DNA of 64,000 bases from contig NZ_CP081150.1 in assembly GCF_019665765.1 (NCBI RefSeq), forward strand, positions 2,356,001-2,420,000, given 5' to 3'. Source of the stretch: Deefgea tanakiae (GTDB lineage Bacteria > Pseudomonadota > Gammaproteobacteria > Burkholderiales > Chitinibacteraceae). This document shows positions 6,176 through 16,291 of this stretch, piece by piece. The notes below the pieces were generated by a model, which did not search any database, was not told where the DNA came from, and saw only the letters and a list, made by a program, of their open reading frames with translations. Each line of letters starts with the position of its first letter. Within the stretch, counting starts at the first letter, position 1. The translations under genes and the position numbers were made by a program.

Positions 6176-6279
6176 CCCCTCCCCCTTGACGGGGGAGGGC
6201 TAGGGTGGGGGTGAAACTACGGAGTGCCGTGATAGTTCATCACCCCCATCCCAGCTTTCCCCCGTCAAGGGGGAAGGAG
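6176..6279. repeat. Long inverted repeat between nrdD and nrdG
   Basis: A left arm of about 38 bases (6176-6213) and a right arm (6241-6279) are near-perfect inverted copies around a 27-base centre. Each arm holds the smaller palindrome CCCCCTTGACGGGGG. It resembles the G/C-tract palindromes scattered in many proteobacterial genomes. It sits within the nrdD-nrdG transcript, eight bases after the nrdD stop. Confidence 0.8.
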
Positions 6280-6288
6280 CTAAAGCAA

Positions 6289-6335
6289 TGTATATTAATC
6301 AAGCAACTAATAAACAAAGCCCACAACAGCATACC
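6289..6335. repeat. 47-bp palindrome family, degenerate copy before nrdG
   Basis: The sequence starts TGTAT and ends ATACC with an exact 47-base span. One end base differs from GGTAT. It ends one base before the nrdG ATG. Membership is uncertain because the inner part pairs poorly. Confidence 0.4.
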
Positions 6336-6336
6336 C

Positions 6337-6804
6337 ATGAATTATGACCGCTACTACACCCACGACCTTGTCAACGGCGAAGGTATTCGAGTGACGCTTT
6401 TTGTCACTGGCTGCGCCCACGCCTGTGCAGGCTGCTACAACGAATCAACGTGGGATAGAAAATCAGGCTTACCTTTTACGGCACAAATTCAACAAGAATT
6501 GTTAGACGCCTGCGAAAATCACGACGGCCTCAGCCTCTCCGGCGGCGACCCCCTCCACCCAGCCAACCGCGACGCCATCCTCAAGCTCTGTAAAGCCTTC
6601 AACCAGCGTTATCCAAACAAGAATATTTGGCTGTGGACGGGATATGTTTATTCAGAAATTGCGGAACTAGAAATATTAAAGTATGTGGATGTGTTAATAG
6701 ACGGTAAATATGAGAAAGATCAGCCAACTAGCCTGCCATGGCGCGGCTCTGAGAATCAACGGCTAATGCCAATCCAACAGATCGGTGCGCCATTAATAGA
6801 GTGA
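6337..6804 (+). CDS. nrdG: Anaerobic ribonucleotide reductase activating protein
   Basis: NrdG is the radical-SAM activase that generates the glycyl radical on NrdD. The protein has 155 residues (E. coli 154). CAHACAGC gives the CxxxCxxC iron-sulfur ligands, and LSLSGGDPL is the SAM-binding GGDP motif. An upstream in-frame start at 6205 would translate part of the inverted repeat. MNYDRYYTHDLVNGEG at 6337 is the family N-terminus, so it was chosen. It is co-directional with nrdD, 168 bases downstream, with palindromic DNA between them. Confidence 0.95.
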   Translation: MNYDRYYTHDLVNGEGIRVTLFVTGCAHACAGCYNESTWDRKSGLPFTAQIQQELLDACENHDGLSLSGGDPLHPANRDAILKLCKAFNQRYPNKNIWLWTGYVYSEIAELEILKYVDVLIDGKYEKDQPTSLPWRGSENQRLMPIQQIGAPLIE

Positions 6805-7088: not shown

Positions 7089-7104
7089 TGGCATTAAATC
7101 TGCT
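7089..7104 (+). promoter_or_regulatory. Sigma-54 (-24/-12) promoter before first pilin stub
   Basis: TGGCATTAAATCTGCT has GG and GC at the exact -24/-12 spacing of the consensus TGGCAcg-N4-ttGCw. The predicted start is near 7115, about 29 bases before the pilin ATG. Pilin genes of Pseudomonas, Geobacter and Myxococcus are known sigma-54/PilR targets. Confidence 0.65.
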
Positions 7105-7143
7105 AACTGTATACCTAGCTAAACCCAAATCAGTGAGCACATC

Positions 7144-7320
7144 ATGAAAATCAATGGATTCACCCTGATCGAATTGATGATCGTTGTTGCCATTATTGGG
7201 ATTTTGGCGAGCATTGCAATTCCACAATATGATGAAATCACCAAAAAGGCTGAGAATAAATCAGCGCAAAGTGATGCAAGAAATTTTCTTACCGCAGCAA
7301 CAGTAAGCAACGACAATTAG
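7144..7320 (+). CDS. Minimal type IV pilin (N-terminal stub), copy 1
   Basis: This 58-residue prepilin has leader MKING, then the processed N-terminus [17 protein letters not shown] with Glu5, as in classical type IVa pilins. The mature product is only 53 residues: the alpha-1 spine plus a short basic/polar tail ([18 protein letters not shown]). It has no globular head and no cysteine. The natural stop TAG sits in a clean intergenic region, and a second, similar gene follows 66 bases on, so truncation by mutation is unlikely. Geobacter PilA-N (61 mature residues) is the nearest known analogue. I infer a split pilin whose head is encoded separately. Confidence 0.85.
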
Positions 7321-7321
7321 C

Positions 7322-7337
7322 TGGCATGATTCATGCT
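7322..7337 (+). promoter_or_regulatory. Sigma-54 (-24/-12) promoter before second pilin stub
   Basis: TGGCATGATTCATGCT again has GG and GC with exact -24/-12 spacing, starting two bases after the first pilin's stop codon. The duplicate promoter suggests the whole promoter-pilin unit was duplicated and that each copy can be expressed by itself. Confidence 0.65.
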
Positions 7338-7386
7338 TAACTCAACACCAGACGTATAGAGCAACCTATCCAACAGGAGCAACAAA

Positions 7387-7569
7387 ATGAAAAAGCTACA
7401 AAAAGGTTTTACATTGATTGAACTTATGATTGTAGTAGCAATTATTGGTATTTTGGCTGCAATTGCTATTCCACAATTTTCGGAATACACCAAGAAAGGC
7501 GAGAATAAAGCCGCCCAGTCCGACGCTCGTAATTTTCTAACTGGCGCAGTTGCCAATTCAAACAATTAA
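7387..7569 (+). CDS. Minimal type IV pilin (N-terminal stub), copy 2
   Basis: This 60-residue prepilin has leader MKKLQKG, then [18 protein letters not shown] with Glu5; the mature product is 53 residues, the same as copy 1. The tail ([18 protein letters not shown]) aligns with copy 1, so the two are paralogues. A good ribosome site (AGGAGC near 7375) precedes ATG 7387. The stop is 19 bases before the next gene, a Sec-exported small protein, so the two probably share a transcript. The head domain of an ordinary pilin is missing. Confidence 0.87.
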
Positions 7570-7588
7570 GCATAAATAGGTGAAAAAC

Positions 7589-7927
7589 ATGAATAAAATG
7601 ATTAAAACAGGCTTACTTGCTGGTGCGGCATTGGTAGCTCTTTCTGGCCAAGTTCTAGCGACTGACGCATGCACTGGCACAGGTGGTGATGCAACAATTT
7701 CGGCTGGCTCATTCATTGTTAATGGCTTTACGCTTAAATGCTCTAAAAATGTAGTATTGGGTTACACCGAATCTACAAACACAAAAGTTGGTGTTTGCGC
7801 AGCCTCACAAAAAGGCAATCGCAAATTCGGCGGTACAAGTGAAGGTGGTGCAGTAGCAGATTTAGGTGCCCACACACAAGGTACAGCCACGACGATCACG
7901 AGTGGTGCTGGCAACGGATGCTCTTAA
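7589..7927 (+). CDS. Sec-exported four-cysteine protein, candidate pilin head (PilA-C-like)
   Basis: This 112-residue protein has a classical signal peptide (residues 1-24, GAALVALSGQVLA, then TDAC). The mature 88 residues hold four cysteines (4, 27, 46, 87), enough for two disulfides, and are rich in Gly/Ser/Thr with predicted beta character. A GTG at 7580 is in frame, but AGGTGA at 7578-7583 is properly spaced for ATG 7589. The 53-residue stub plus this 88-residue chain totals 141, about the size of one ordinary mature pilin. By position it matches the PilA-C/Spc partner of Geobacter PilA-N. No sequence family was recognised; the role is inferred from context. Confidence 0.6.
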   Translation: MNKMIKTGLLAGAALVALSGQVLATDACTGTGGDATISAGSFIVNGFTLKCSKNVVLGYTESTNTKVGVCAASQKGNRKFGGTSEGGAVADLGAHTQGTATTITSGAGNGCS

Positions 7928-7954
7928 TTTAATTGTTCAGCAAAAAGAACTTTC

Positions 7955-7984
7955 AAACCCCAAATTTTTTTTGGGGTTTTTTAA
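7955..7984 (+). terminator. Intrinsic terminator after the pilin genes
   Basis: AAACCCCAAA pairs with TTTGGGGTTT and the arm runs into a T-tract. It would separate abundant pilin mRNA from the downstream membrane and transport genes, with partial read-through possible. Confidence 0.85.
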
Positions 7985-8002
7985 TTTAAGAAAAATAATT
8001 AA

Positions 8003-9283
8003 ATGCCAAACACTGTGACCAAACCAAGCGTTAAGAAAATACAACTTCAAGTTCTTAGTGGAGGGTGTTTAATTTGGCTAATAATTACAGCTCTGATGCC
8101 CAGCCTAACACCATCAGGACTTGACTCAATACTCCATCTGGCGACAAACGGTAACTGGCTATTGACAGATGAGATTCAATATTCAATTAGTATCGTTTTC
8201 ATATTAGCGCTCACCCATCAAATATTGCCATATTCCCAATGGCCATGGCAATTTTTCATATTCTGGTTACCATATGGAATATGGGCAAGTTTTTCAGTAA
8301 TCTGGTCTATTTACTCAGGCTATAGCATGCATGAGTCAGTTCATGAAGTATGGCTACCTATCTCAATTTTTTTATTTTCATTTGTTATAACAAAAGAAAG
8401 AGTATTCACACTAAGTCAAATATACTCCGCATTGTTATGCATTACACTTGCCGGAGCCTTAGCTGTAGTAGTTACAAATGAAACAACTCCCGGCAGTACT
8501 CGACATTATTTTGATAAAGTACTATTCGGAAACTGGCTTAGCTACACATTAGCTTTCGCAATGATTGGCAGCATTCCATTTTTAAAGTCACAACAAAATA
8601 TAAATTCAGCTATTTACTTATTGATTTGCAGTATTATTCTAGGCGCAACTCTTGGGTCTAGAATGTTTTGGCTATCAGCAATTCCTATTTGGCTATTTAT
8701 TACCTACATAACAAAGAATCAGCTTTTAAAAAATAGAAATAGAGCAACATTCTGGGTAATTATTTTTATAATTATTTGCGCAATGTACATCTTCACTGCG
8801 GCACCAAAAAAATCGAATGAACTCTCAAACCTTCCGCAACAATGGACTTGGCTAAGCACATTATTCAATAATGAACGCTATGCAATGTGGAACGCTTGGT
8901 TTAACGCATCTCAATCGAACTGGATAACAGGAACTGGACTCGGCTGGGAACTCCCAGGCATGGCTTACAGTCAACATCTTCCCGACTGGATGAGCAATAC
9001 CATGATGGCATCACATGGGCACAATTTATTTCTCAATGTTTATTTACAACTGGGCTTAATTGGATTTTTTCTATACTCACTTTTTTTTGCCTTAATGCAA
9101 CTTCATGCACATAGAACACCAGAAACGGCTGAAAGTATACAGAATGGATTCATGTTAATGCTCTTAATTTTGATTGGTAAAAATTTTAGCGATGATGGAA
9201 TGAGGGATCAGAATATCAGCTATTACTTCTCTCTTATTGGATTTATATTCGGCCACAATAACCAAGCACAAATAAAAAACTAA
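8003..9283 (+). CDS. O-antigen ligase (Wzy/WaaL/PilO-type) family membrane protein
   Basis: A 426-residue integral membrane protein with about ten hydrophobic segments. A large periplasmic loop carries GTGLGWELPGM, and the segment ASHGHNLFLNVYLQLGLIG is the conserved His-containing motif of Wzy_C/WaaL ligases. Such enzymes move lipid-linked glycans to lipid A or, in the PilO/PglL/TfpO group, to pilin Ser/Thr. Its position after pilin genes suggests pilin or pilus glycosylation, but the acceptor cannot be read from sequence. It is shorter than PglL (about 600) and close to TfpO. Coding DNA is markedly AT-rich with many ATA codons. Confidence 0.75.
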   Translation: MPNTVTKPSVKKIQLQVLSGGCLIWLIITALMPSLTPSGLDSILHLATNGNWLLTDEIQYSISIVFILALTHQILPYSQWPWQFFIFWLPYGIWASFSVIWSIYSGYSMHESVHEVWLPISIFLFSFVITKERVFTLSQIYSALLCITLAGALAVVVTNETTPGSTRHYFDKVLFGNWLSYTLAFAMIGSIPFLKSQQNINSAIYLLICSIILGATLGSRMFWLSAIPIWLFITYITKNQLLKNRNRATFWVIIFIIICAMYIFTAAPKKSNELSNLPQQWTWLSTLFNNERYAMWNAWFNASQSNWITGTGLGWELPGMAYSQHLPDWMSNTMMASHGHNLFLNVYLQLGLIGFFLYSLFFALMQLHAHRTPETAESIQNGFMLMLLILIGKNFSDDGMRDQNISYYFSLIGFIFGHNNQAQIKN

Positions 9284-9296
9284 AAGTCAAAATACA

Positions 9297-11291
9297 ATGA
9301 CAAATTTAAAATTTTACCAGCAGTTAATTGAGAGTGGAAAAGCGCAACAAGCCATTTCATCCATAGAAAAAAATATTAAAAAACAGCCAAAATCAGACTC
9401 TTTGTGGGTGCTGCTAGGTGCCGCACATCAAACAGAGGACAACCTTGAAAAGGCTGAGAGAGCCTTCAAGATGGCACTCCAAATTAATCCTCGCAACATA
9501 GACGCAAAAATCAATCTAGCAACTATTTATGTTGAACAGTTCCAACTTGTTGATGCGAAAAAGCTAATTTTAGAACTTGAGAAATTAGCCAAAAACCTGC
9601 CTTTAATCTGGCGACTAAAAAGCCGTATTTTTATGATTGAGGAGAACTACAAAGAGTCGTTTGCCACGACAAAAATAGCGATTAGATTGGAACCAGACAA
9701 TATTGAATACTGGTATGAACTCGTAAGTAGCGCAATCAATGGCAATTTAGATGCCCATATCGTTTATGCATTTACAACAGCATCAAAATCAATTTCTAAA
9801 AAATCTGAATTCATTAGTCTACAAGCTCTAATTTTTGCGAGACTACACCTTATTCCATTTGAAGATGCGTTTCAATATACACTTTGGCAGCCAAAGTCAG
9901 AGGATGAATTACTTCGAAGAACAATGGTTCAAAGCAGCCTACTTCTATGGGCAGGAGCCTTTGCTGATGCAGCCGAACTTTTAGAGATATTAATACCTCA
10001 ATATACCAATTTAATTGAATGCCGCGCCTTACTAGGCATCGCTCAATTAGCAACAAAAAATTGGAAAGACGGATGGAAAAATTACGCACACCGCTCACAG
10101 AAAAAGACTCTAATAAATTCACTTAAAATACCAGTCTGGACTGGAGAGAGCTTGAGTGGTAAGCGGTTACTTATCCACGGTGAACAGGGTGCTGGAGATG
10201 TCATTCAATTCATTCGATATATTAAATGTATTGAACAAACAGCGCTAAAAGTTAGCTTTAACTGTTCACCAGATATGTTGCCACTTTTCGGCAAGGATGC
10301 AATTAATGAAGCCAATCAAAATACAACTTTTGAAGCGGATACAATATTTGACTTCCAAACACGTTTGTTAGATCTTCCTCAATGGGTCAAATTTGAGGAT
10401 ACTCAACCCACCCCCTATATACAGATAGACATGTCTTGCAAAAAAAAGTGGGCTGCAATTTTAGGAAACAAAGAAAATATTCGAATTGGCATTGTATGGG
10501 CAGGTAATCCAAACCATGCTGGTGATTTTGAAAGATCAGCAGCATTGCTAGATTTTGAGTCTCTTTTTACGACAAGTGGGATTAGCTGGTACAGCCTACA
10601 AAAAGGAGTAGCGGCACAAAATGAGTTGAACGATTTACTAAATACTTTTCCAATAGTTGATTTAAGCTCACACATTTACGACTTCTCTGATACTGCTGCA
10701 ATAATATCTGAGCTTGATTTATTATTAACAGTCGACACCTCAGTTGCTCACCTTGCAGGCGCACTTAATACTCCAACATGGGTGTTACTTAGCTCTTTTA
10801 GTCCAGATTGGCGATGGGACACAGAGCAAAACTCATCCGATTGGTACCCATCAATTCAGACATTCAGGAAGAAAGAAATTTCATGGCAAAATTTTATAAG
10901 CTCAGAAATTAAAAATAAGCTTAAAGAATTTTTTCATTTAACCCCAAAAATAGATCTCAAACAAGCAACAAACTCTTACTTAAACAGCACTCTTGAGAAT
11001 TTTGAATTGCTCAAAAACATGAAGAGTTTGACCACTGATGAGATTTTAAAAGCTTTAAATGAAATTTTATCAACTCATAAGAGACACCTTGAATCACTCT
11101 TACTTAGGGCGCATATTCTCATTCAACAGCAACAATTTGAGCATGCACTCTTAGATATATGTGCTGCATGTCGTTGGCATCCAGACAACTCAAATGCAAA
11201 GATGCTTATGGCTGACTGGCTACAATTATTTGAAAAAAACTGGATGCTCAACAAAGAGAGCTTAACTTTAACTCTATTGGATATCGAGTAA
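9297..11291 (+). CDS. TPR protein with GT9/GT41-like glycosyltransferase domain
   Basis: A 664-residue protein with at least three TPR units in residues 1-150 (for example LWVLLGAAHQTEDNLEKAERAF). The C-terminal domain (about 290-540) carries HGEQGAGDVIQFIRY, GIVWAGNPNHAGDF and TVDTSVAHLAGALNTPTW, the hallmarks of heptosyltransferase-like domains found in TPR-glycosyltransferase fusions. A second short TPR stretch lies near the C-terminus. It starts 14 bases after the ligase gene, so it is probably translated from the same mRNA. No signal peptide is present, so it should act in the cytoplasm, perhaps building a glycan for the neighbouring ligase. The sugar is unknown. Confidence 0.75.
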   Translation: MTNLKFYQQLIESGKAQQAISSIEKNIKKQPKSDSLWVLLGAAHQTEDNLEKAERAFKMALQINPRNIDAKINLATIYVEQFQLVDAKKLILELEKLAKNLPLIWRLKSRIFMIEENYKESFATTKIAIRLEPDNIEYWYELVSSAINGNLDAHIVYAFTTASKSISKKSEFISLQALIFARLHLIPFEDAFQYTLWQPKSEDELLRRTMVQSSLLLWAGAFADAAELLEILIPQYTNLIECRALLGIAQLATKNWKDGWKNYAHRSQKKTLINSLKIPVWTGESLSGKRLLIHGEQGAGDVIQFIRYIKCIEQTALKVSFNCSPDMLPLFGKDAINEANQNTTFEADTIFDFQTRLLDLPQWVKFEDTQPTPYIQIDMSCKKKWAAILGNKENIRIGIVWAGNPNHAGDFERSAALLDFESLFTTSGISWYSLQKGVAAQNELNDLLNTFPIVDLSSHIYDFSDTAAIISELDLLLTVDTSVAHLAGALNTPTWVLLSSFSPDWRWDTEQNSSDWYPSIQTFRKKEISWQNFISSEIKNKLKEFFHLTPKIDLKQATNSYLNSTLENFELLKNMKSLTTDEILKALNEILSTHKRHLESLLLRAHILIQQQQFEHALLDICAACRWHPDNSNAKMLMADWLQLFEKNWMLNKESLTLTLLDIE

Positions 11292-11296
11292 TACTT

Positions 11297-12106
11297 ATGA
11301 GTCCTGTATTTATTTTTAACAAAATGACTGTAATCTCTGGAATTAGAAGCAAAGCATTTTGGTTGATTTTATTTATAACAGTCCTTCTCTTTAGCGCTGC
11401 TTTTTTATCAGGATCATTTTCATCTAGACAGCCCCTTGTTGTTAGTTTAGATGTTGGTTACACAGCAGCAAGAATAGGATTGCTTTTTTTAGCGCTAGTT
11501 TGGACTCAAGAATTACTACAAAAAGATCTTGATAAAAAAACTGTGCACTGGGCTGTTGCATATCCATGCTCTAGAGCAAGCTATTTATTAGGAAAATTAC
11601 TTGGGATTTCCGCATTACTTTTAATGTCTACAATTATTTTTTCTCTACCACTTTGGTGGATTGCCAACTATGCTAGCTGGGGATATGAAGCCTCAAGTTT
11701 GCCTTATATAGGCCTATCTTACCCAATAAGCATGTTTGGACTATGGCTAGAGTCGATGATAATTTTAGCTTTTACAGCTTGTATGATTACAATTAGTACC
11801 ACACCTTTTTTAGCTATTGCTATAGGACTTTTATTTTCACTAGCTGGACGTGGACTTGGCGCTGTTCTCGATTTTTTATTATTTAGCCCTTATGCTGATG
11901 CTAGTTTTAAAGCAAAATTTTTACCTATAGCTAATACTCTCCGCTGGTTCTTACCTGATTTATCAGCTTTAGACTGGAGACAAGCAACACTTTATGGACA
12001 TTGGCAAGGTCTATATCCTGGAGCTGCTATTTGTATGGCATTGGGCTATATATTAATATTTACTGCACTTTCCATGATTATATTCAACAAAAGAGCGCTC
12101 AATTGA
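11297..12106 (+). CDS. ABC-2 type transporter permease (PilI-like by context)
   Basis: A 269-residue protein with about six transmembrane helices, including a long first helix (AFWLILFITVLLFSAAFL) and the ABC-2 feature QELLQKDLDKKTVHWAVAYPCSR between helices 2 and 3. It starts six bases after the TPR-glycosyltransferase. Together with the ATPase at 13004 it forms a transporter. Myxococcus and Bdellovibrio pil clusters contain an analogous set, PilG-PilH-PilI, needed for pilus formation; assigning this gene as PilI is inference from context, not alignment. Confidence 0.7.
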   Translation: MSPVFIFNKMTVISGIRSKAFWLILFITVLLFSAAFLSGSFSSRQPLVVSLDVGYTAARIGLLFLALVWTQELLQKDLDKKTVHWAVAYPCSRASYLLGKLLGISALLLMSTIIFSLPLWWIANYASWGYEASSLPYIGLSYPISMFGLWLESMIILAFTACMITISTTPFLAIAIGLLFSLAGRGLGAVLDFLLFSPYADASFKAKFLPIANTLRWFLPDLSALDWRQATLYGHWQGLYPGAAICMALGYILIFTALSMIIFNKRALN

Positions 12107-12166
12107 ATATCGATCAACTTATTCTAGCTATTAAACGTTATCACCATTTTTTGGACTGATATTGCG

Positions 12167-13000
12167 ATGCAAAAAAAAGAGTTAATTTATACATTAATAA
12201 TTATAGTAGTGGGATTGACTTTGCATACCATAGGCAGCTTTACACTAAATAATAATCGAAAAGCAAAATCACATAACGATGACCTTGCGGTAGCGGCACC
12301 CGTGCCTATTCAATTATTTATTGCGGGAGGGGATCGTTACTTAGCCTCAAATATTAATATTTTTCGCACATTTATGCTAGACAATCCCTACCCAACCCCT
12401 GAAACAATTTCAACACAAGCTAAATTACAAAGTACCGCAAGTTTCTTTAATCCAGCACATGAAGACAATTACTACTTAGCTGCAGCAACAATTAGTTGGC
12501 AAAATGAAATCCCTACAGCTCAACAGATTTTATATGCAGCAATGACTAGTCGACCTCAAGATATTTACCCTGGTTTTTTCTATGCATTCAACAAAAAATA
12601 TTTCGAGCATGATATTGCTGGGGCAATAAAGACTCTTAATCAAGTAGCTCTTCGCGCAGATAAAAACAACTATCAAGCTTTAATGGTTATGGCTGCAAGA
12701 TGGGCGGACCAAAGTAATGATAGCATTGAAGCAATTAATATACTGCAAGCAATGATTAAACAAACCAATGAACCAGCATTAAAGGAATTTCTAGAACAAA
12801 GGGTTACACGGCTAAAGGGGCTACTTTCTTTACAAACTGCCGCACACCAATATGCCAAACAAACAGGTCTAGTACTAACCCAGCTTGATTCACTAGTTCA
12901 ATCGGGTATCATTAATCAAATTCCAGTAGACCCTATAGGGCAAGGTTATGGCCTGAGTCCAGATGGGAAACCAATATTACTTTCGGCGAAGACTAATTAA
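12167..13000 (+). CDS. Membrane-anchored TPR-like protein between ABC transporter genes
   Basis: A 277-residue protein with one N-terminal membrane anchor (LIYTLIIIVVGLTLHTIG) and an extracytoplasmic helical domain. Helical repeats at about 100-235 look TPR-like (YLAAATISWQNEIPTAQQIL; ALMVMAARWADQSND). The C-terminus ends with IPVDPIGQGYGLSPDGKP, a short motif reminiscent of pilin-type DP-G loops. I do not recognise a named family. It sits between permease and ATPase, so it is probably a third subunit, in the position PilG holds in deltaproteobacterial clusters. Confidence 0.55.
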   Translation: MQKKELIYTLIIIVVGLTLHTIGSFTLNNNRKAKSHNDDLAVAAPVPIQLFIAGGDRYLASNINIFRTFMLDNPYPTPETISTQAKLQSTASFFNPAHEDNYYLAAATISWQNEIPTAQQILYAAMTSRPQDIYPGFFYAFNKKYFEHDIAGAIKTLNQVALRADKNNYQALMVMAARWADQSNDSIEAINILQAMIKQTNEPALKEFLEQRVTRLKGLLSLQTAAHQYAKQTGLVLTQLDSLVQSGIINQIPVDPIGQGYGLSPDGKPILLSAKTN

Positions 13001-13003
13001 ATT

Positions 13004-13924
13004 ATGGCTGCAATTGAACTTATAAATTTAAGTAAATCTTACACTAGTCAATGGGGTAAAAAATCGATAGCCCTCAATGATTTGAATTTAAAAATAGAAG
13101 ATGGAGAAGCGTTTGGATTTATAGGAGCAAATGGAGCAGGAAAAAGCACTACAATTAAAATAATTATGGGGTTACTCAAAGCAAGTTCAGGGACAGCATT
13201 ACTATATAATCAAGATGTCAAAACTCCAACAGCTCGAAATGGGATAGCTTATGTACCTGAGAATCCTTTGCTCTACGATTATCTAACTCCGCTTGAAATT
13301 TTAAAAGCAGGAGCGCAACTCCATAGACTTAAGACAAATGATTTACATCGGCATTGCCTGAGTTGGCTAGAACGTTTTGATTTATTACACGTAGCTAAGA
13401 AGCAATTACGAAGTTTCTCTAAAGGAATGATGCAGCGAACGGCCTTGGCACATGCGTTCACAATACAACCTAAGCTAATGATACTTGATGAACCATTTTC
13501 AGGATTAGATCCTTTAGGAAGAAAACTTGTACTTGATATTCTTGCTGAGTATAGGCAACAAGGAGGTACATTATTTTTCTCCTCACATATTCTATATGAC
13601 GTAGAACGACTTGCAGATCGGTATGCGTTAATTAATAAGGGCAAACTAGAAACAGTTCATAAGCCTAGCGAGTTATTAAATAATGAAACAACTGTTTTAA
13701 TTACTAGCTCTGGTGAGATGCATGCTATGGGAATGGAATCTCAAGGTCTAAATCGCTGGAAAGCAGAAGTAAGTAGAGCGAATTTATGGAGTTTAATTGA
13801 GCAGCTAAAACAATCAGGACATCAGATTCATGAAATACGCTCTATATCAACTTTAGAGCAAACTTTTATCGCTTCTATAGAAGCCCAAAAAGCCAGCTAT
13901 ACGACAAGTCAAAAATCAGCCTAG
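13004..13924 (+). CDS. ABC transporter ATP-binding protein (PilH-like by context)
   Basis: A 306-residue ATPase with Walker A GANGAGKST (about 42-50), the signature stretch RSFSKGMMQR, Walker B LMILDEPFSGLDP and the switch histidine in FFSSHIL. The C-terminal extension of about 80 residues is typical of exporters pairing with ABC-2 permeases. It begins three bases after the preceding stop, so translation is likely coupled. With the permease at 11297 and the TPR-like protein it makes a complete inner-membrane transporter. The substrate is unknown. Confidence 0.85.
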   Translation: MAAIELINLSKSYTSQWGKKSIALNDLNLKIEDGEAFGFIGANGAGKSTTIKIIMGLLKASSGTALLYNQDVKTPTARNGIAYVPENPLLYDYLTPLEILKAGAQLHRLKTNDLHRHCLSWLERFDLLHVAKKQLRSFSKGMMQRTALAHAFTIQPKLMILDEPFSGLDPLGRKLVLDILAEYRQQGGTLFFSSHILYDVERLADRYALINKGKLETVHKPSELLNNETTVLITSSGEMHAMGMESQGLNRWKAEVSRANLWSLIEQLKQSGHQIHEIRSISTLEQTFIASIEAQKASYTTSQKSA

Positions 13925-14023: not shown

Positions 14024-14389
14024 GTGCAAAAAATATTGTTTTTATTCATAATGTGTTTTACAACTTACTCCTTCGCCGCCCGTATTCTCCCCGAAGGCGT
14101 ATTTACAACGTTGGACTCATACACTCCACCGGTCATTCGCTTAGATGGCAAGGATTTTCAAACTTCGGCTGCTTTTCAGATTCGAGATGCTCAAAACCGA
14201 TTGATTGCTCCGCAACGCGTACCGACTGATGTGCCGGTTTGGATACAGGTTGAGCCAAGTCGGCAGGATTTGATTTGGCGTGCTTGGATTTTGTCGCCGG
14301 AGGAAGTGGAATATCTCAAGTCAATCGGCCGTATCAAAGAGCCTCGATCCAGCTTCTTTGGTTTAGAATGCTTGTTTGTTCAATGCTGA
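14024..14389 (+). CDS. Small exported hypothetical protein
   Basis: A 121-residue protein starting at GTG behind AAAGGAA (about 14011-14017). Residues 1-19 form a signal peptide (ILFLFIMCFTTYSFAA). The body (RILPEGVFTTLDSYTPP, then QDLIWRAWILSPEEVEYL) has no motif I recognise; two cysteines lie in the last ten residues. Base composition returns to that of the flanking chromosome within this gene, so it marks the right border of the AT-rich block. It may end a little early: the last dozen residues look unlike the rest. Confidence 0.5.
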   Translation: MQKILFLFIMCFTTYSFAARILPEGVFTTLDSYTPPVIRLDGKDFQTSAAFQIRDAQNRLIAPQRVPTDVPVWIQVEPSRQDLIWRAWILSPEEVEYLKSIGRIKEPRSSFFGLECLFVQC

Positions 14390-14917: not shown

Positions 14918-14944
14918 TCCAGTTTTTTGAAAAGAAGTTACGCA

Positions 14945-16291
14945 ATGAGCAAAAAAGTATTTATTAAAACCTTCGGCTGCCAGATGAACGAATACGATTC
15001 GGACAAAATGGTCGACGTGTTACACGCCTCCGAAGGCTTGGTGAAAACCGATAACGTCGAAGAAGCCGATGTGATTTTGTTTAACACCTGTAGCGTGCGC
15101 GAAAAAGCGCAAGAGAAAGTGTTTTCTGATCTAGGTCGAATTAAAGACTTAAAAATCGCCAATCCAAATCTGGTGATTGGTGTCGGCGGCTGCGTTGCTT
15201 CGCAAGAAGGTGATGCCATCGTCAAGCGTGCGCCGTATGTAGATATTGTGTTTGGTCCGCAAACTTTGCATCGTTTGCCTGAGTTGATTGCCGCCAAACG
15301 TAAATCCGGGATTAGCCAAGTTGATATTTCTTTCCCAGAAATCGAAAAATTCGACCACCTGCCGCCTGCTCGCGTTGAAGGCGGCGCGGCATATGTATCG
15401 ATCATGGAAGGCTGTTCGAAATATTGCAGTTTCTGCGTTGTGCCTTATACACGCGGTGAAGAAGTATCGCGCCCGTTTGAAGACATCCTGACCGAAGTCG
15501 CACATTTAGCGCAGCAAGGCGTGAAAGAGCTGCATTTGCTCGGCCAAAATGTGAACGCCTATCGCGGCGTGATTTTAGATGGCTCTGATGAAGGCGAAAC
15601 CGCCGATTTAGCCACGCTGCTTGAATACGTGCACGAAATTCCTGGCATCGAGCGCATTCGGTACACCACCAGCCACCCCAAAGAAATGACGGCGCGGATT
15701 ATTGATTGCTACCGCACGCTGCCTAAGCTTTGCTCGCAATTGCATTTGCCAGTACAAGCCGGTTCGGATCGCGTGTTGGTGAATATGAAACGCGGCTACA
15801 CCACGCTGGAATATAAATCAGTCATTCGCAAACTACGCGAAGCGCGCCCTGATTTGTGTTTCTCGAGTGACTTTATCGTTGGCTTCCCTGGCGAAACCGA
15901 AGAAGACTTCGAGCGCACAATGAAGCTCATCGAAGACGTGGGCTTTGATACCAGCTACAGCTTTGTGTACAGCCGTCGCCCAGGTACGCCAGCCGCCGAT
16001 TTGCCTGATGATGTGCCAGAGGAAGTTAAACTCGCTCGCCTGCAACGGATGCAGAAACGTCTAGAGCAACAAGCCGAAGCGATTAATTTGGCCATGGTCG
16101 GCAGTGTGCAGCGTGTGATGGTTGAGCGTTTTGCCAAAAAAGACAAAACCGAGCTTGCTGGTCGTACCGACAATAACCGCATCGTGAATTTTGAAGGCAA
16201 TCCACGCTTGATGAATCAATTTGTGCACGTCAAAATCACCGATGCGTTCCCACGCAGCTTGCGTGGCGAGATTGTGACGCAAGAAATCTAA
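14945..16291 (+). CDS. miaB: tRNA-2-methylthio-N6-dimethylallyladenosine synthase
   Basis: MiaB is the radical-SAM methylthiotransferase that modifies A37 of tRNAs. The N-terminal UPF0004 domain has Cys12 ([10 protein letters not shown]), Cys49 (NTCSVRE) and Cys83 (GGCVASQ), which hold one 4Fe-4S cluster. CSKYCSFC near residue 157 is the radical-SAM cluster. The C-terminal part contains the TRAM domain. The product has 448 residues. An in-frame ATG at 14927 adds six residues, but [14 protein letters not shown] at 14945 is the family start. It begins the conserved block miaB-ybeZ-ybeY-ybeX-lnt. Confidence 0.97.

Follow-up and report, generated by a model that had tools for sequence, protein, structure and literature searches.

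The 64,000-nucleotide stretch of Deefgea tanakiae DNA analysed here (the window) carries a compact set of genes for a putative two-chain type IV pilin and an ATP-binding cassette (ABC) transporter, below called the cassette. It lies on a 3.56-Mb contig (completeness 100) of a genus belonging to the Betaproteobacteria, Neisseriales, Chitinibacteraceae. Eight genes, all on the + strand, fill the interval between nrdG (6205-6804) and miaB (about 14942-16291): stub 1, stub 2 and head, followed by a Wzy_C ligase, a TPR-glycosyltransferase, an ABC-2 permease, an anchored tetratricopeptide repeat (TPR) protein and an ABC ATPase. By stub we mean a short, headless prepilin, and by head the exported chain encoded directly after it. 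The GC content of 7144-13924 is 0.371 versus 0.488 and 0.507 on the two flanks, so the gene set, shared direction and low GC content described in a first-pass annotation of this DNA are borne out.

7144..7320, + strand: stub 1, short prepilin of 58 amino acids (aa; mature 53), the extra and more variable stub; N_methyl
7387..7569, + strand: stub 2, PilA-N-like short prepilin of 60 aa (mature 53), the recurrent type; N_methyl, PDB profile
7589..7927, + strand: head, predicted Sec-type exported PilA-C-like chain of 112 aa, about 88 mature, 4 Cys
7955..7979, + strand: terminator-like hairpin (intrinsic type) with T tail, directly 3' of the head gene
8003..9283, + strand: Wzy_C/O-antigen-ligase-family membrane protein, optional; PF04932, E 1.6e-12
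9297..11291, + strand: TPR protein with a weak glycosyltransferase-9 domain, optional; Pfam
11297..12106, + strand: ABC-2 type permease; PF12679 (ABC2_membrane_2), E 1.3e-10
12167..13000, + strand: membrane-anchored TPR-fold protein, the cassette marker in this analysis; predicted structure
13004..13924, + strand: ABC transporter ATPase; PF00005 (ABC_tran), E 2e-28

Both stubs run for exactly 53 residues past the Gly of GFTLIE. N_methyl is the only Pfam match above cut-off in either of them; GspG/GspH models match below cut-off only, and PF00114, the family of one-chain type IVa major pilins, matches neither the stubs nor the head up to E 1 (Pfam). When a profile of 23 stubs was compared with all PDB sequences, three Geobacter PilA-N chains took ranks 1-3 (E 3.1e-24, 3.3e-24 and 6e-22), as against E 4e-17 for the best one-chain pilin. 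The ratio of non-synonymous to synonymous differences (pN/pS) of stub 2 is 0.05-0.09 versus six relatives, at pS values of 0.70-0.98 that are near saturation, which points to strong purifying selection on this stub. Since the head gene lies in a different frame and possesses its own start and leader, the arrangement is not that of an interrupted pilin gene. No promoter-like site above chance was found upstream of the stubs. The 'two pilin stubs' of the first-pass annotation stand as 53-residue headless prepilins, but are better described as a recurrent stub and an additional one of greater variability.

The head open reading frame (ORF) starts with ATG at 7589 and encodes 112 aa (a GTG start would yield 115 aa). 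Cleavage is predicted between VLA and TDAC, as assigned by our own motif rule and not by a signal-peptide program, and would leave 88 mature residues with 4 Cys, presumably exported by Sec. The top Foldseek matches of the predicted fold are three Geobacter PilA-C chains and the head profile also points to PilA-C; the head is thus predicted to have the PilA-C fold. The suggestion of a Sec-exported four-Cys head candidate is in good agreement with these results, as is the comparison with Geobacter PilA-N/PilA-C, which turns out to be right for both chains; far from being unrelated to pilin heads, the four-Cys protein is predicted to fold like one. No Pfam or NCBIfam family matches the D. tanakiae head, and no Pfam family is common to more than 2 of 61 heads of relatives. 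A Cys pair (Cys28, Cys51) is conserved in most relatives, where it probably forms a disulfide. Among the 34 loci with all five cassette products recognised, the head is the least conserved of the five in 505 of 561 locus pairs; in the closest pair, identity is 97% for the ATPase, 94% for the stub and 56% for the head. Such variability suggests a surface-exposed part of a filament.

How widely the cassette occurs was followed with two queries (handles beginning with L denote loci, those with G genomes). In a sample of 150 genomes of relatives, a search with the head protein gave matches in 14 of the 149 genomes besides that of D. tanakiae. Of these matches, 12 adjoin stubs, and 11 of the 12 have ABC genes in reach; at L052 the contig ends just past the head, with the ABC genes out of view. 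Matches in G098 and G033 (E 0.004-0.007) came without cassette genes and were dropped as chance. The anchored TPR protein gave no match to genome contigs when its single sequence was the query, and an alignment of it was used instead against named genomes, which yielded 146 relatives, of which the best 80 loci were kept. Hosts among these best 80 of 146 are Chitinibacteraceae, Rhodocyclales, Accumulibacter, Thauera, Comamonadaceae, Pseudomonas, Stutzerimonas and Atopomonas. By a direct scan, 70 of the 80 loci have a short prepilin (51-55 mature residues), and seven of the ten that lack one lie on contigs shorter than 11 kb; picking by ORF, which overlooked stubs overlapping other ORFs, recovered 64. 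By a less sensitive first method, head genes were recognised in 68/80 loci, permeases in 59/80 and ATPases in 71/80. Both chains were recognised in 59 loci, and in all of these but L149 (58 of 59) the head ORF starts -19 to +46 bases from the stub end. The split is not an accident, because the short prepilin recurs in 70 of the 80 loci and stub 2 has a pN/pS of only 0.05-0.09. Some cassettes have two heads (L046, L047, L054, L105 and L154), and L046, L047 and L054 among them have one stub only by the direct scan.

Of 72 related head genes, 59 have a terminator-like hairpin just downstream (mean in shuffled copies, 3.1). The same hairpin type occurs after 2 of 131 genes for permeases or anchored TPR proteins, most of which run straight into coding sequence, and within 60 bases 3' of 1 of 80 stubs. 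It also follows 3 of 6 one-chain pilin genes of Deefgea and is therefore not special to the split. Its place after the head suggests that stub and head are co-produced at higher levels than the ABC gene products, as filament subunits would be.

The cassette also includes the three ABC-type genes. The anchored protein falls below the Pfam TPR cut-offs (TPR_19, E 0.024) and has nothing below E 0.06 among PDB sequences; by structure prediction (pLDDT 92) it consists of a single N-terminal helix and a helical solenoid, with TPR proteins as best structural neighbours. The earlier label 'anchored TPR protein' thus holds by predicted structure and fails by Pfam cut-offs. These three ABC genes also occur in group f79, from a different class of the phylum, where they adjoin one-chain pilins in L098, L099, L101 and L070, and in other genomes of the group (L095, L096) a stub and a larger head-like ORF; the ABC genes therefore go with a pilin lineage and not strictly with the split. 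The one-chain pilins in question (L098, L099, L070 and L101) have 138-148 aa and a C-terminal part that is weakly head-like in pattern, and hhalign of the head profile with the one-chain pilins beside ABC genes (L070, L098-L101) gives a probability of 4.7% and a pairwise P of 0.0085 in a sensible register, a result that we do not count as evidence for a fusion.

The glycan genes, in contrast, are present without being a fixed part of the system as first proposed: a Wzy relative occurs in 5 of 12 related loci, the neighbouring genes differ in other loci, and these genes are optional. A dedicated pilin glycosylation locus was considered and rejected, as the ligase is not conserved with the cassette. 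The glycosyltransferase-9 match lies at its cut-off only (22.0 versus 22), behind clear TPRs, and that the Wzy_C protein acts in pilin glycosylation is a guess. In a Pseudomonas cassette, a membrane acyltransferase gene (L090:11718-12767; PF01757) comes right after the ATPase and perhaps serves another surface modification.

We found that the cassette sits at the major-pilin locus and nearly excludes another major pilin. The nrdG-miaB interval holds it in three of seven Deefgea genomes (D. tanakiae, G004 and G006), whereas the other four have one to three one-chain pilins there and no ABC genes. One pilin tested from each of these four genomes belongs to PF00114, and the seven one-chain proteins at the Deefgea locus have mature lengths of 125-144 residues versus 53 + 88 = 141 for stub plus head. 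No PF00114 pilin is matched in the three cassette genomes, D. tanakiae included at E 0.01. The full-length pilin elsewhere that the first-pass annotation had named as an argument against its proposal was accordingly not found; the lone pilin read outside the cluster is ComP-like. This gene (L189:10041-10559, about 2963 kb in the same genome) encodes a minor pilin of the DNA uptake sequence receptor family (PF16732) and hints at natural transformation.

The same exclusion is seen at larger scale, with p-values that take no account of relatedness. In the Chitinibacteraceae, 11 of 43 genomes have the anchored TPR gene. Raw PF00114 matches occur in 5 of these 11 versus 30 of the 32 without the gene (Fisher p 0.0017); in four of the five (L195-L198) the match is to a pilin-like domain inside a TM2 or RDD membrane protein that lacks N_methyl. 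Counting one-chain PF00114 prepilins, read from the best match per genome and with the G027 match only partly covered by the stretch taken, gives 1 of 11 (the exception is G024) versus 29 of 32 (Fisher p 1.5e-6). Among 99 Pseudomonadaceae genomes, a PF00114 match is found in 0/9 with the anchored-TPR gene versus 79/90 without it (p 9.7e-8), where 6 of the 79 pilins were read and stub and head were seen in at most 4 of the 9, the other 5 being classed by anchored TPR alone. Ten of the 80 named loci, all of them in Pseudomonadaceae, have stub and head oriented divergently from a row of coaE, pilD, pilC and pilB genes; at L090, PilB and CoaE pass the NCBIfam cut-offs, PilC is below cut-off (PilC/GspF models) and the name PilD follows from gene position. 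For comparison, seven genomes of the same genus without the cassette were inspected: a one-chain pilin adjoins pilB or pilC in six, divergently in five and on the same strand in one (L233), and in the seventh (L238) the stretch ends too early.

The locus has probably been exchanged. Between D. tanakiae and G004/G006 the flanking proteins are close (MiaB 96% and 99%, NrdG 89% and 86% identity), while those of the cassette show far lower identity (permease 34% and 27%, ATPase 49% and 42%). The closest ATPase in the tree set comes from another genus (L056, 66%), where it also adjoins nrdG, and an ATPase tree, a quick one of 46 rows in which L053 forms a long branch of odd composition, rejects a single clade for the three Deefgea cassettes (approximately unbiased test, p 3.3e-5). 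The transfer suggested by the first-pass annotation is thereby supported, and recombination in the conserved flanks would account for it most simply. A search of the plasmid collection with the anchored protein gave no match, and no mobile genes were noticed beside the cassette, without a dedicated search for them. A 121-aa ORF without a Pfam match (14024-14389) lies between the pilin locus and miaB in 7/7 Deefgea genomes, whatever the pilin type.

Taken together, we consider it likely (probability roughly 0.82) that the cassette specifies a two-chain major pilin of the Geobacter type, together with its own ABC transporter. By analogy with Geobacter, stub and head would form one subunit. The stub would enter the inner membrane as a prepilin, be cut by prepilin peptidase and supply the conserved, buried core of the filament; the head would reach the periplasm through its own leader and Sec, fold there, dock on the end of the stub helix and supply the filament surface, so that the pair would replace one ordinary pilin. 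The terminator past the head gene would let the stub-head pair exceed the downstream products, and the ordinary type IV pilus machine would polymerise the subunits (a PilB of the ordinary kind is encoded elsewhere in the D. tanakiae genome). Permease, anchored TPR protein and ATPase would act as a PilGHI-like transporter that perhaps extracts or hands over subunits. We infer the composition of the filament and the expression ratio alike.

In an alternative that we regard as unlikely, the head is a periplasmic chaperone, as in the 'short pilin chaperone' view of Geobacter PilA-C/Spc, and the filament consists of stubs alone, which the head would only assist in folding or in staying membrane-inserted. 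The accessible part of PMC8844916 makes the case for thin pili of PilA-N and refers to PilA-C as a trimeric chaperone of the inner membrane, and the far better conservation of the stub than of the head would agree with this. However, a head that is the least conserved product in 505 of 561 pairs, and only 56% identical even where the ATPases share 97%, suits a surface part over a chaperone of a near-invariant client; the hairpin 3' of the head puts both chains in one output unit, and in the solved Geobacter filaments, according to the accessible text of PMC11046646, both chains are found in one subunit.

For Geobacter PilA-N/C, a role as a secretion pseudopilus or as a piston in the periplasm has been proposed; that the stub-head unit forms such a structure and no surface pilus is, in our view, quite improbable. 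Gu 2021 reportedly described the Geobacter pair as secretory rather than nanowire-forming. The stub matches to GspG/GspH models, below cut-off as they are, would fit a pseudopilus. What the accessible part of PMC8844916 offers is a summary by opponents, according to which Geobacter PilA-N/C was reported to be secretory and not to form nanowires. Against this, the unit occupies the place of one-chain PF00114 pilins and nearly excludes them, and D. tanakiae has a GspE/GspF-like cluster with prepilins elsewhere in its genome (L190; labelled by likeness). Finally, a reading of the stubs as decayed pilin genes, and of the four-Cys protein and ABC genes as an unrelated export system, e.g. for a small secreted peptide, could appeal to the D. 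tanakiae head having no Pfam or NCBIfam family, but is strongly disfavoured by the recurrence of the 51-55-residue stub, its low pN/pS, the fixed spacing of head and stub in 58 of 59 loci and the PilA-C-like predicted fold and profile of the head.

The two-chain pilin preferred here has its closest known counterpart in Geobacter PilA-N/PilA-C (geopilin domain 1/2; GSU1496/GSU1497, Spc; PDB 6VK9, 7TGG and 9EGP), where a short prepilin is likewise followed by a Sec-exported chain. It differs in that the stubs have 51-55 residues, compared with 61 in Geobacter PilA-N (accessible text of PMC11046646), that the head belongs to another sequence family and mostly has a conserved pair of Cys residues, that cassettes often have two stubs, sometimes two heads and optional glycan genes, and that they occupy exchangeable pilin loci of beta- and gammaproteobacteria. 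One-chain PF00114 pilins share the chromosomal locus and presumably the role; they differ in being a single chain and, in the four Deefgea genomes that carry them, in lacking ABC genes as neighbours.

For the ABC transporter, the comparison with PilGHI made by the first-pass annotation proved apt in gene content and position, as an ATPase, an ABC-2 permease and a third protein adjoin the pilin gene. The f79 loci L098 and L099, where one-chain pilins, one ORF, anchored TPR protein, ATPase and permease follow each other in this order, resemble pilA-G-H-I, given what we take to be the roles of PilG, PilH and PilI. In the pilA-pilGHI cluster of Myxococcus xanthus, ABC-type genes likewise lie directly beside the major pilin gene; Myxococcus PilA is one large chain, and the cassette order is permease, anchored TPR protein and ATPase. 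As far as the accessible text of PMC5544727 goes, deletion of pilGHI in M. xanthus causes defects in S motility, which depends on pili, and these are complemented by pilGHI; a similar need for the ABC transporter is therefore expected in this pilin lineage. In Geobacter and its relatives, the layout of pilus clusters closely resembles that of the pilGHI-containing cluster of Myxococcus (accessible part of PMC6060248).

The 'truncated pilins' of Accumulibacter, Neisseriaceae, Pseudomonas and others in the accessible part of Shu et al. 2016 (PMC5174107) are very probably the same stubs; there, only Geobacter is credited with a separate head. In the open-access literature we recognised no report in which truncated pilins have a distinct head chain, other than in Geobacter and its relatives, with subscription papers and bioRxiv outside the scope.

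The assembly ATPases gave a side finding. A GAF-domain PilB relative of 777-787 aa is encoded in all three cassette Deefgea and in 0/4 others. As a dedicated cassette ATPase it was rejected: family-wide it occurs in 6/11 cassette genomes versus 17/32 others, and the link vanishes. In D. tanakiae, L230:6154-12372 (about 604-610 kb), which is not cassette-linked, encodes PP2C, FHA, a 255-aa ORF, the GAF-PilB ATPase and GAF-HD (labels by likeness to L133). PilB-family ORFs of 740-876 aa lie in the fetched stretch of 21/80 named loci; at L133 (2327-8160) and L152 (2119-6129), such an ORF and a 540-aa ORF are upstream of the stub. Pfam finds GAF-MshEN-T2SSE and GAF-HD at L133, preceded by PP2C and FHA, and a module of this type may be a second, sensor-linked assembly motor.

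To our knowledge, two-chain pilins have so far been discussed mainly for Geobacter, where they are tied to the debate on conductive pili. With the cassette, many beta- and gammaproteobacteria, among them Pseudomonas, Thauera and relatives of Accumulibacter, would have a two-chain pilin as their alternative major pilin, in place of the one-chain pilin. A tentative and rather doubtful extension is that a near-invariant core with interchangeable heads lets cassettes that pair a single stub with two different heads, or that have two to three stubs, build mixed or switchable pili, and that entire cassettes are traded against one-chain pilins at the pilin locus, like surface-antigen loci. The 'truncated pilins' gain a probable head partner, and inferences drawn from stubs alone, e.g. 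on conductivity, need a second look. Finally, the disputes over chaperone versus subunit and over the role of the ABC transporter become testable in closely related species of Deefgea or Pseudomonas with different pilin types.

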